Origin: Gemmatimonadota bacterium
GTDB lineage: Bacteria > Gemmatimonadota > Gemmatimonadetes > Longimicrobiales > Gaopeijiaceae
DNA: 37,330 bases
Assembly: GCA_007124095.1 (NCBI GenBank)
Contig: SLFU01000213.1
Span: forward strand, 1 to 37,330
Reading direction: 5' to 3'
Shown here: positions 33,873-37,330 of the stretch, piece by piece
Numbering within the stretch: the first letter of the stretch is position 1
Layout: every line of letters begins with the position of its first letter
Translations under genes and position numbers: made by a program
The notes under the pieces: generated by a model
The model's input: only the letters and a program-made list of their open reading frames with translations
What the model was told of the DNA's origin: nothing
The model's database searches: none

Positions 33873-34355
33873 TCAGCTGCGCGGGTCGTCGGCAGGATCC
33901 AGGTACTCGATTCCCCAAGGGCCGCTCCCGTGCAACTGCATGATCACCTCGCCCTCGGCATAGCCGAACATAGGCTCACCGGGAGGCATGATGGCCAGGC
34001 TGCCCGGCGGCAGTTCGCGAGTGGCACCGGGATCGAACTGCTCGCCATGAGCAAAGTGCAGGGTGCCGGACAACACGGTCACTCGTTCGTATTCGGGGTG
34101 GACGTGGGGCAGGATTCGGTATCCGTCTTCGAGGCGTAGCCGGAAGGTGAAGGGTTCGGCTTGCGAAATGTCGCCCTCGAGGATCGCAATCTCGGCCCCC
34201 TCTCCCATCGACGCCACAGGTCCCCACTCCAACTCGTCTGCGGTCATCATCACGTACCCGTCCCTGGGGTGCGTTTCCCCGCTGCCGGACCAGACCAGTC
34301 CGACGGTGAGAAACGCTGCCAGGACTACACCGGGTAAGCTCCATCTTCTCTTCAT
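33873..34355 (-). CDS. Exported cupin-domain protein
   Basis: This 160-residue protein has a Sec signal (MKRRWSLPGVVLAAFLTVGLVWS) and one cupin barrel. The metal motif is visible as LPHVHPEYERVTVLSGTLHF (two histidines, a glutamate) and the second cupin motif as LPPGSLAIMPPGEPMFGY, where the usual final histidine is tyrosine. It fits the small periplasmic cupins often called DUF4437-like. The substrate is unknown. ATG 34355 has GAGGT 6 nt upstream. It may be co-transcribed with the lectin-like gene 222 nt downstream. Confidence 0.8.
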   Translation of the reverse strand: MKRRWSLPGVVLAAFLTVGLVWSGSGETHPRDGYVMMTADELEWGPVASMGEGAEIAILEGDISQAEPFTFRLRLEDGYRILPHVHPEYERVTVLSGTLHFAHGEQFDPGATRELPPGSLAIMPPGEPMFGYAEGEVIMQLHGSGPWGIEYLDPADDPRS

Positions 34356-34703
34356 GGTCAACCTCGTTCGATCAAGAGTCGCGTGCTGTCCACTGCCTGA
34401 CTACTGGGGTCATCCCTCCGTGGAGATGAGCCCGACGGGCGGCAGCTGTCCCGCTACCGGGTACGATGCGCCGGGAGGGAGAAGAGTTCCCTGAGGGGGG
34501 CGATCGTCTCAACCGCTCCCACCTGAATTGGAATATCCTCCTACGTCGAAGCCATCGGAGGACGCGGTCAGGGGCGGTGCAGTGAGAGGCGGACACGACG
34601 AAAAGTGAGGCCCACGTCTGCCCGTGGCAGCTGGAGCTTCAGAAAGAGCTTCGCTTCGCTCCGCTGATCCTCAGCGGTACGATCCGGATGTTCGACGCGG
34701 TAG
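34356..34703. other. Intergenic stretch left of the tRNA fragment
   Basis: No gene is supported in these 348 nt. A short hairpin CCGCTGA/TCAGCGG with a 3-nt loop at 34661-34677 lies just after the tRNA 3' end on the minus strand and could be the original tRNA terminator, although its T-tract is poor. Confidence 0.5.
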
Positions 34704-34746
34704 TGGGCGCTGGAGGATTCGAACCTCCGACCTCCTGCTTGTAAGG
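34704..34746 (-). tRNA. 3' fragment of tRNA-Val(UAC): likely attachment-site half (attL or attR)
   Basis: On the minus strand these 43 nt are a tRNA from the last base of the 5' anticodon stem to the discriminator base. The anticodon loop CTTACAA (anticodon UAC, valine) and 3' stem GCAGG are followed by variable loop, T-arm GGAGG-TTCGAAT-CCTCC and acceptor AGCGCCC plus A, with no encoded CCA. The 5' half (acceptor, D-arm, first anticodon strand) is missing and replaced by unrelated sequence. With an integrase gene 200 nt away this is the typical product of integration into a tRNA gene. It is not a functional tRNA by itself. Confidence 0.8.
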
Positions 34747-34763
34747 AAGTACAGTCTGCCCTT

Positions 34764-34876
34764 CTCCGACTTTCCTCCGATTTCCCCACACTCCTGAAAA
34801 CCCTTTCTGTTATTGGGCTTTCATCCTATTTTCCTTTCTGGGAGATTCTCCGGGTTTCTTCTACACCTCCGGATTT
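34764..34876 (+). repeat. Four CTCCGRNTTY repeats between tRNA fragment and integrase gene
   Basis: Copies begin at 34764 (CTCCGACTTT), 34775 (CTCCGATTTC), 34848 (CTCCGGGTTT) and 34867 (CTCCGGATTT). Two pairs with 11- and 19-bp steps flank an AT-rich centre. This is where arm-type integrase and excisionase sites normally lie, so they are candidates for that role. Confidence 0.5.
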
Positions 34877-34944
34877 TACTCCCTATTATTTCCCTAACCC
34901 CGACTCCCTTCTTTTCCGGAAGGGCTTGCGAAAGGAGAGCCGAG

Positions 34945-36195
34945 ATGCCGAAGAGAGCAGCCGCCCTCACCGCCAAGGAAGTCGAGGCCGCGACCTCCGA
35001 GGGCAAGACTCAACGGGACCGATCTGACGGGCTATGTCCTGGCTTGGTACTCCGGATCGCCAAGACCGGCCGCAAGACCTGGGTGGTCCGGTACAAGGCG
35101 AATGGAACCCGGAACCGGTCCATGAAGATCGGCACCTACCCCAACACATCGCTCGCAGATGCCCGAAAGAGGGCCAGGGAAGTCCTTGGCCAAGCCGAGG
35201 ACGGGGAGGATCCGGCCCAGGAGCGCGAGGATCGGCGGGCAGGCCGGGGGACCTTCGGGGAGATGGCCGAGGAGATCCTGACGAAGGAGCTGGAGCCCCG
35301 GCTGAAGCAGGGATCCCTTCGAGAAAGCACACTCCGGGAGTGGAAACGGATTCTGGAGTCTGAACTCCTCCCCGCCTGGAGGCACCAACCAGCCGGGGAG
35401 ATCTCACGTAGGGAGGTGCGGACGTTGGCGGAGAAGATCGCCGGAAGGGGATCTCCCGCCATGGCGGATCGGGTGGTCTCGTTCGTGAACTTCCTCTTCA
35501 ACCGCGCCCTGGATCGGGAATTTCCCAACCTTGTAGGAAATCCGGCCCATCGGATGAAGCTCGCCTGGGAGGACAAGGGCAGGGACCGCTACCTCACGGC
35601 AGAGGAGATCAAGGCCGTCTGGAAGGCCGCCTCCGAGGACATCCCCGGCGTCGGATGGGCCTTCCAGCTGGCTCTCCTCACGGGCCAGAGGATGGGATCG
35701 GTCGCGGCCATGCGTTGGGACGGGATCGAAGTGAAGAAGGATGGGGGACTCTGGACGATTCCTCCCGAGCACTTCAAGGGAAAGCGAACCCATCTGGTCC
35801 CCCTCTCCGAGGAGGCATGGGAGGTCATCGGACAGCTCCGGGAAACTCCGGCCTCTGAGACCTGGGTCTTCCCCTCCCGGCCCCCTGCGAGGAAGCCTTA
35901 CCTGCAGGCGTGGAATCGGGCACTTGAGCGAATCCGAGATCGAAGCGAGGTGCCGGATTGGACCGTTCATGACTTTCGAACCACTTTTCGGACTCACGCG
36001 GTTCGGGCTCCCGAGGATGAAGGATTAGAAGTCCCCGCCCACGTGGCGGACGCCGTGCTGGGACATAAGGAGGCGAGCTTGGGGTTTGGACGTTACACTG
36101 GGGACAAGAGCCGCTATCTCCTTCATGAGAAGCGAGAGGCCCTGGCGGCGTGGGGACGATTCATCCGGAAGGCGGTGGAGGTCGAAAATGACTAA
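34945..36195 (+). CDS. P4-type tyrosine recombinase (integrase)
   Basis: This 416-residue integrase has an N-terminal arm-binding domain of the DUF4102 type (SDGLCPGLVLRIAKTGRKTW, KIGTYPNTSLADARKRA), a core-binding helical region (about 105-205) and the catalytic domain. Catalytic residues are visible: arginine in LLTGQRMGSV (near 249), lysine in the HFKGK beta-hairpin, HDFR (near 340), GHK (near 372) and the nucleophile tyrosine in FGRYTGDK (near 382). Such enzymes insert elements into tRNA 3' ends, matching the neighbouring tRNA-Val fragment. ATG 34945 has AAAGGAG 8 nt upstream. A TTCCGGAA palindrome lies at 34915-34922. Its stop overlaps the next gene by 8 nt. Confidence 0.95.
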   Translation: MPKRAAALTAKEVEAATSEGKTQRDRSDGLCPGLVLRIAKTGRKTWVVRYKANGTRNRSMKIGTYPNTSLADARKRAREVLGQAEDGEDPAQEREDRRAGRGTFGEMAEEILTKELEPRLKQGSLRESTLREWKRILESELLPAWRHQPAGEISRREVRTLAEKIAGRGSPAMADRVVSFVNFLFNRALDREFPNLVGNPAHRMKLAWEDKGRDRYLTAEEIKAVWKAASEDIPGVGWAFQLALLTGQRMGSVAAMRWDGIEVKKDGGLWTIPPEHFKGKRTHLVPLSEEAWEVIGQLRETPASETWVFPSRPPARKPYLQAWNRALERIRDRSEVPDWTVHDFRTTFRTHAVRAPEDEGLEVPAHVADAVLGHKEASLGFGRYTGDKSRYLLHEKREALAAWGRFIRKAVEVEND

Positions 36196-36712
36196 CGAGG
36201 ACCGAAACATTCCAGAGCTTCCGGAAATGCCGCCAGAGGAGGAACGTCGGCAGACTCTCCTGGCCACGAAGGAGATCCCTCCAATCCTCAAGAGAGCCCT
36301 GGATCGCATCGACGACGGTTGGGCGCTCCTCTGGGTACAACATGAACTATCCCGCCTTGGTGACCCCGCAGCTCGAAGAAGGACAGCTGCCCACAAACCG
36401 GGCACAGGATTGAGGCACGACCTTCTTCGAGCGACGCAGGCCGATGTTCACCTTGAGTACCTGAAGGGAAAAGAGATGGGCTTCGATTTCGAGGACGGTC
36501 GGCTGACTCTTGAATCGGGGGGAGGCCGTCCCAGGTCGCTGTACCGGCAACTCATTGAGGCCTTGGACGAAGAACTCCAAGGTGAATCCCTCAAGCTCTC
36601 TCGCGCCGAAAAGATTCGAAGGATGTCCTCGCTCCTGAAGCCTTTCTTCTCACCAACACTCACCTCCACGGGAACCAAGGACCTCCTCGCCCGCACCTAC
36701 GACAACGTCTGA
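36188..36712 (+). CDS. Unknown 174-residue protein of the integrated element
   Basis: ATG 36188 overlaps the integrase stop by 8 nt and has GGAGG 7 nt upstream, so it is translated with the integrase. The protein is soluble, charged and mostly helical by eye, with a proline-rich acidic start (PELPEMPPEEERRQ). A middle part contains ALDRIDDGWALLWVQHELSR, and a basic C-terminal stretch LKLSRAEKIRRMSSLLK is followed by TSTGTKDLLARTY. No family is recognised. Overlap with int suggests a role in element upkeep rather than cargo (inference). Confidence 0.7.
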   Translation: MTNEDRNIPELPEMPPEEERRQTLLATKEIPPILKRALDRIDDGWALLWVQHELSRLGDPAARRRTAAHKPGTGLRHDLLRATQADVHLEYLKGKEMGFDFEDGRLTLESGGGRPRSLYRQLIEALDEELQGESLKLSRAEKIRRMSSLLKPFFSPTLTSTGTKDLLARTYDNV

Positions 36713-36756
36713 TCGAAGAACTCCTTCTTCGCCGGAATTCGGCCACACCTCGGAAG

Positions 36757-36824
36757 TTTCCTTAGAAGGTCCCCCCACTCTCCGTGACCTCCCTTCCTTC
36801 CTGATCACCACCTTTCCTTAGAAG
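36757..36824 (+). repeat. Direct repeat TTTCCTTAGAAG, two copies 56 bp apart
   Basis: Perfect 12-bp copies at 36757-36768 and 36813-36824 lie in the non-coding stretch before the AlpA-like gene. Each is followed by a TCCC tract. They may be regulator or excisionase sites. Confidence 0.6.
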
Positions 36825-36877
36825 TCCCTCTCGTCGCTGTAAGTTGTTGCCCAGCATGATCTTCCCCTTCCATTCCC

Positions 36878-36901
36878 CCGGACTTTCCGGAAAATTCCGG
36901 A
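36878..36901 (+). promoter_or_regulatory. Candidate operator before the AlpA-like gene: three CCGGA boxes with a TTTCCGGAAA palindrome
   Basis: CCGGA occurs at 36878, 36887 and 36897. The middle copy sits in the perfect 10-bp palindrome TTTCCGGAAA (36884-36893). The same core TTTCCGGAA recurs at 34914-34922 before the integrase start. The rest of 36713-36937 shows no gene. Confidence 0.45.
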
Positions 36902-36937
36902 CGTCAATGAGAGCGAACCCGCGCAAGGGAGGACGAG

Positions 36938-37174
36938 ATGGAGAGGGACATGAAACAGGCCGATGCCGGAATGCCGCGGATCCTGCGGGCCCCGGAGGTC
37001 GAGCGGATGACCGGGCTCTCCGGAGTGAGTATTTGGCGGCTGGAGAAACGAGGAGAGTTCCCACGTCGCAGACGGCTCGTGGGAAAGCTCGTTGGATGGC
37101 GATCGGACGACGTCCAGCGGTGGATCGAGAGCCGGGAGCGGCTTCCCGTCGAACAGCCAGGATCCACCGACTGA
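36938..37174 (+). CDS. AlpA/MerR-like excisionase-type DNA-binding protein
   Basis: This 78-residue protein has a winged-helix of the AlpA (CP4-57 regulator) type: ILRAPEVERMTGLSGVSIWR is the helix-turn-helix, then LEKRGEFPRRRRLVGKLVGW and the recognition-wing end RSDDVQRWIESRE. AlpA proteins control integrase expression or act as excisionase (recombination directionality factor). The start has GGGAGGA close upstream. Its place downstream of int, behind palindromic sites, fits that job. Confidence 0.85.
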   Translation: MERDMKQADAGMPRILRAPEVERMTGLSGVSIWRLEKRGEFPRRRRLVGKLVGWRSDDVQRWIESRERLPVEQPGSTD

Positions 37175-37212
37175 CGACAAAGGCCGCCGCCGTCGAGAGG
37201 CCGGAGGCGGGT

Positions 37213-37330
37213 ATGCGCCGAACGGGAGACAGGATGACAGGGACGAACCGTACGCCGGAGATTTTTCATGAAAAGACAGACTGCCGAACGCCCATCCTCC
37301 GATCTGCGGGTGGACAACGCCCACAAACCT
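37213..37330 (+). CDS. Start of an unidentified gene of the integrated element, cut by the window edge
   Basis: An open frame begins at ATG 37213 (GGAGG 5 nt upstream) or in-frame ATG 37234 (GGGAGA upstream) and has no stop to the edge (39 codons). The visible protein start (MRRTGDRMTGTNRTPEIFHE) is not recognised. It lies 38 nt after the AlpA-like gene, where P4-like elements often carry a primase or replication gene, but nothing here proves that. Confidence 0.45.
   Translation, partial: MRRTGDRMTGTNRTPEIFHEKTDCRTPILRSAGGQRPQT

Follow-up and report, generated by a model that had tools for sequence, protein, structure and literature searches.

The end of a contig from a Gemmatimonadota genome raises the question of whether a piece of a tRNA-Val gene beside an integrase marks the edge of an integrative element and, if so, which half of the tRNA is displaced. 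The window, the whole stretch of DNA that was analyzed, is the entire contig C32 (37,330 bases), from a 2.83-Mb draft assembly in 242 contigs. The host side and the junction comprise:

33873..34361, minus strand: host cupin gene by the tRNA locus (Pfam AraC_binding/DUF4437 over the cut-off, Cupin_2 below it)
34649..34703, no strand: host 3' flank of the tRNA-Val gene, conserved beside intact tRNA-Val in G030, G027, and G001
34704..34746, minus strand: displaced tRNA-Val(UAC) 3' fragment, 43 nt, identical to the 3' part of the G001 tRNA-Val
34739..34745, minus strand: anticodon loop CTTACAA, by analogy the probable 7-bp overlap of strand exchange

The fragment equals the last 43 nt of a whole tRNA-Val(UAC) in the same-genus genome G001 (C35:665-742), and ARAGORN found no complete tRNA in all 37,330 bases of the window, which bears out the truncated tRNA copy called in the original prediction. 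Read from the host side inward, identity runs from the tRNA 3' end through the anticodon loop and one stem base and then stops; just past the loop, the element side of the junction diverges from the host tRNA sequence. This end point, one base beyond the loop, agrees with the crossover in the anticodon stem-loop that had been proposed. A displaced tRNA fragment is thus present at one element end, and the half that lies beside the integrase in the window is the 3' half, not the 5' half.

To place the boundary in its genomic context, we searched 59 genomes (G000 included) with a 911-base query spanning it. Forty-nine matched, mostly by the tRNA part alone. The match continued into the 3' flank in G030 (86% over 103 columns; E = 2.4e-27), G027 (78%), and G001 (77%), and in all three it ended at window position 34749. 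Because identity runs into the flank and stops at this position in each of them, a chance match is excluded. All three carry a whole tRNA-Val(UAC) at the orthologous locus, with no integrase-set match in the stretches fetched around it. The finding named in advance as counting against an integrated element, the truncated fragment in relatives without the integrase, appears in none of them at this locus. Three relatives that lack a matching integrase have this 3' flank next to an uninterrupted tRNA gene, which identifies the sequence left of the junction as host chromosome and the junction itself as an att site. The earlier statement that the left boundary is defined holds for the host flank and the junction, but the boundary itself can be placed only to within the 7-nt anticodon loop (34739-34745). 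The cupin gene is 79% identical and collinear in G001, lying 6.1 kb from the tRNA there versus about 0.4 kb in the window. The GC content of the element part is 60.6%, versus 65.9% for the host part, and is lower than that of all equal-size host windows (minimum, 63.0%).

On the element side of the junction lie:

34880..34897, plus strand: possible arm-type integrase site pair, TCCCTA..TCCCTAA, between core and integrase gene as are the paired repeats of its kin
34945..36195, plus strand: tyrosine integrase, 416 aa (Pfam, PHROGs, alignment of five, residue check)
36188..36712, plus strand: orphan open reading frame (ORF), 174 aa, overlapping the integrase stop codon and matching no family in four libraries
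36938..37174, plus strand: AlpA-like HTH protein (PF05930, 3.2e-14; phrog_66, 2e-12)

The integrase begins with an ATG at 34945, 199 bp beyond the tRNA fragment, and matches PF13356 (1.8e-22), PF00589 (1.3e-15), and phrog_1 (6.5e-56). Its Arm-DNA-bind_3 and Phage_integrase domains are both over the cut-off, the criterion for the P4 type; one NCBIfam model was matched below its cut-off (79 versus 434 bits). The Pfam and PHROGs matches thus confirm that a P4-type integrase and an AlpA-like factor adjoin the fragment. Residues R249, K278, H342, R345, H374, and Y384, which we take to be the catalytic set, are all present and invariant in an alignment of five integrases, and from its sequence the enzyme is predicted to be catalytically complete. 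The AlpA-like protein is probably an excisionase or a regulator. The TCCCTA..TCCCTAA pair, two imperfect repeats and the sole such pair in the genome, may represent arm-type integrase sites. The orphan ORF had no match in Pfam, PHROGs, NCBIfam, or PADLOC and no relative in the other 58 of the 59 genomes, phage records, or viral contigs. Integrases in plasmid records were all less than 60% identical to that of the window (about 32% in the best row), and viral contigs contributed three, at 26-32%.

Islands of the P4/CP4-57 type combine the Arm-DNA-bind_3 and Phage_integrase domains with an AlpA partner, as in the window. In P4, the integrase gene adjoins the restored tRNA, whereas in the window it adjoins the displaced half. 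A further difference from these islands is that no P4 replication or satellite gene lies in the visible 2.6 kb. PADLOC returned nothing for the three element proteins, and no satellite gene was seen, in line with the original remark that neither a defense nor a satellite function is visible.

Very probably, the contig breaks off within an integrative element (genomic island) lodged in a host tRNA-Val(UAC) gene, and the part that is visible is the end with the integrase. The integrase would recombine attP with the host gene inside the anticodon arm, where the stem would supply inverted core sites and the 7-nt loop the overlap. The original host 3' half would remain with its 3' flank, beside the integrase gene, and the unseen far end would carry an element-borne 3' half that restores tRNA-Val behind the host promoter; AlpA would probably promote excision. 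This reading is supported because the 43-nt identity ends at the loop and the 3' flank is conserved in three uninterrupted relatives, because int and alpA lie directly inside the junction and the catalytic residues are present, and because the GC content of the element falls below that of every equal-size host window. A remnant, in which the far end or most of the cargo has been lost and the integrase and displaced half are a fossil, is a less likely explanation, though one worth carrying. The visible element of only 2.6 kb would suit it, as would the imperfect putative arm sites and the tRNA-Val 3' halves that stand without any integrase-set match on contig C8 of G037; the full-length integrase with every catalytic residue and the intact alpA argue against it.

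To determine whether the same geometry occurs in more distant kin, we checked 27 integrase loci (26 distinct, L053 and L150 being one) for nearby tRNA pieces; misses are likely in this check because the query set held 71 tRNA sequences only. A clear 3' half cut at the anticodon loop adjoins the integrase at five loci, in G037 (Pro), G271 (Arg/Thr-like), G097 (Gln), G007 (Lys), and G029 (Val), and a clear 5' half at none of the 27. The remaining loci showed no tRNA piece at all, only short pieces or ones lying some way off, a more distant intact tRNA, or a plus-strand T-loop (L139 and L153), which we take to be the end of a tmRNA. The locus in G061 (L133) may contain more than half of a tRNA and was therefore not counted among the 3' halves. 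We rejected a simple island end for contig C19 of G007: the tRNA-Lys half there has a repeat pair flanking it on both sides, which suggests an attP-like or tandem join, and there is no second copy on that contig. For these reasons, we used it for polarity only. In G029, the displaced tRNA-Val 3' half adjoins the integrase gene on contig C55, and a whole tRNA-Val lies near the start of contig C26 with a GGGGTACTCC repeat on its 3' side. The same repeat occurs between core and integrase gene on C55; therefore, C26 is probably the other end of the same element. The main reading gains support because G029 probably shows both ends in the geometry proposed for the window and because the Pro, Arg/Thr-like, Gln, and Lys kin share its polarity.

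Against this reading, the draft contains neither the far end nor a restored tRNA. The second tRNA copy had been expected on the downstream contig, but the window is an entire contig that ends 1,135 bp past the integrase gene, with nothing further. The search for a second copy inside an intact tRNA-Val failed: with up to three mismatches allowed, the 30-nt core has a single occurrence across the 242 contigs of the draft. At the 24 tRNA loci of the draft (matches over the cut-off), ARAGORN identified no tRNA-Val of any anticodon, the last 30 bases of the contig are found on no other contig, and the putative arm-site pair has its integrase-side copy only. Given that the draft lacks any tRNA-Val, its tRNA-Val genes fell into assembly gaps. 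Because G029 has its whole tRNA-Val on a separate contig with an element-like 3' side, we regard the absent second copy as a gap in the assembly, not as a refutation; the window carries an integrative element of an ordinary kind, truncated by the assembly.

According to excerpts from the Islander paper, 3,760 of 3,919 islands have displaced 3' fragments and 159 have 5' fragments, and sites are anticodon centered in 2,083 of the 3,919 (PMC4383910). As far as those excerpts describe them, the islands resemble the window in their tyrosine integrase, anticodon-centered crossover, and displaced 3' fragment; the differences are that the restored tRNA expected for the window is absent from the assembly and that the nearest integrase kin belong to the rare 5'-fragment class (PMC4383910). 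Displaced 5' halves are known but rare.

These nearest kin form, with the window, a clade of 45-56% identity. When genome contigs were scanned with a three-row alignment, five integrase relatives emerged, from Gemmatimonadetes or Gemmatimonas metagenome-assembled genomes (MAGs); across 395 genomes of the phylum, a search at E <= 1e-60 returned five hits, namely, the window itself and four of those relatives. Four of the five have a recognizable site upstream of the integrase gene, and all four sites are plus-strand tRNA 5' halves that stop at the anticodon arm. They derive from tRNA-Arg(CCT) in L085/G004 and L087/G388, and tRNA-Val(UAC) in L086/G402 and L088/G038. The fifth (L089/G143) is without a recognizable site, and its integrase N terminus differs. 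That the integrase adjoins a 5' half in the four nearest relatives with a recognizable site weakens our interpretation of the window. An assembly chimera joining the host tRNA locus to an unrelated element, which the stop 1,135 bp beyond int might suggest, is scarcely credible, given a join at the anticodon loop, as in the five distant kin of the same polarity and the four close kin of opposite polarity.

The most complete of these 5' cases is that of G402. G143 has an uninterrupted tRNA-Val, whose 5' flank the integrase contig of G402 (C201) matches at about 91% identity; the match runs on through the end of the anticodon arm, and the displaced 44 nt of G402 are identical to the G143 tRNA-Val. 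A second contig (C140) is 97.7% identical to G143 over 1,478 bp, from the tRNA through its 3' flank; upstream of the tRNA it has no G143 match, and its 5' half is identical to the displaced host half at 40 of 44 positions. The decamer TGGACCCCAC is common to both ends (an equally long match arose in 16 of 500 shuffles). In the simplest reading, which joins two contigs because no single one spans the element, the element would lie between the two halves, with the tRNA rebuilt from the element's 5' half and upstream sequence. That upstream sequence would then work as a promoter; by a simple hexamer score, it could not be told apart from the upstream region of the host. The G388 5' flank matches that of an intact tRNA-Arg in G007 at 90.7% identity; the tRNA match breaks at the arm, and the far end of the element was not found. 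The 5' flank in G004 is 69% identical to that of G007, and TGTACCCTAG is common to both G004 ends (equally long match in 11 of 500 shuffles).

At the probable element end in G004 (C93; L118, L111), the tRNA-Arg(CCT) has the acceptor stem GCCCTCA...TGAGGGC, whereas the displaced host half has GTCCCCG; either the element brings a full tRNA, or the host half has altered so that it pairs with the incoming 5' half. Such a tRNA with its own acceptor stem, like the lack of a restored tRNA-Val in the draft, would fit an element that brings its own complete tRNA-Val instead of restoring one at the att site. Excerpts on tRNA-dependent lysogeny describe elements that break the tRNA, a phage-borne tRNA then complementing it with no rebuilding, and that share with the window a tyrosine integrase and a core inside the tRNA gene (PMC10865867). 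We consider this very unlikely for the window: the tRNA is rebuilt at the junction in both kin for which a far end is apparent and the halves can be read, G402 and, probably, G029. The visible 2.6 kb contains no complete element-borne tRNA of the same isotype.

How, then, could one clade displace both halves? From host to integrase, the junction reads CCTGC-TTGTAAG-GAAGT in the window, CCTGC-CTTACAA-GCAGT in G402, and ACTGC-CTCCTAA-GCAGT in G004 and G388; G038 departs, with TCTGG-TTTACAC-ACCGT. The two sides of the anticodon stem form an inverted repeat flanking a 7-nt loop, so reversing the overlap in attP would be enough to change polarity. Similar arms would meet the enzyme from either side, and the loop alone would differ in direction. 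The window and the four 5'-half relatives form one group in two trees (bootstrap/SH-aLRT, 98/98 and 100/99); in the second of these, L133 is a 118-aa piece only, yet labelled A. Since the group contains both polarities, at least one polarity change is required within it. A single clade of the four 5'-half relatives is not rejected (p-AU 0.356); the tree would be compatible with the window lying inside or outside the 5'-half group and with one origin of the 5' type. On balance, we favor a single integrase lineage that switched the replaced tRNA half: the same core-binding enzyme could use the site in either direction, the four sisters now replace the 5' half and so place an essential tRNA under upstream sequence brought by the element, and the window keeps, or regained, the 3' type. 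Our search of open-licence papers turned up no integrase clade described as having both polarities. Excerpts on pTN3-like archaeal integrases state that these use the 5' half, that the tRNA is then expressed from the integrase promoter, that bacteria seldom show such use, and that the stem and loop of the anticodon are similar to a core site (PMC8371274). As described there, they share 5'-half replacement with the window's sister elements but are archaeal and have an integrase gene split on integration, and the window displaces the 3' half instead (PMC8371274).

Taken by itself, the window is routine, and what deserves follow-up is that its integrase clade contains both polarities. The clade offers a natural comparison of homologous integrases at the same kind of tRNA site with opposite polarity, in which one could test whether the symmetry of the core site is enough for an integrase to choose its direction and whether an element-driven essential tRNA makes the element harder to lose.

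Several minor observations concern these loci. All six contigs of the integrase clade (window, L085-L089) break 0.3-2.3 kb after the integrase gene, whereas their host sides extend much further before a break (Fisher p about 6e-4, the six being not fully independent); the cargo of these elements may vary between strains. On C13 of G143 (L121), integrase DNA is about 99% identical to that of G402 over the shared part, and the N-terminal part and context differ. A different integrase lies 3' of the tRNA-Val in G402 (L115 189-1355) and in the matching G143 stretch (L114), so a further element probably occupies this site, and L115 2061-2300 contains part of a third integrase. G004, which has a 5'-half element at tRNA-Arg, also has a further tRNA-Val 3' half without an integrase-set match (C110:3491; L119). 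In the 5'-half element of G038, a HATPase_c protein, cut near the contig end, follows the AlpA match (L088 12066-12593). The G029 contig with the 3'-half integrase (C55; L080) also encodes an FRG-domain protein and a weak GNAT match. Finally, C8 of G037 (L082; 36432, 37361, 44068) has a whole tRNA-Val and two displaced 3' halves, and from ORF reading an outer-membrane factor, a membrane fusion protein, and an RND efflux pump lie between the tRNA-Val pieces.
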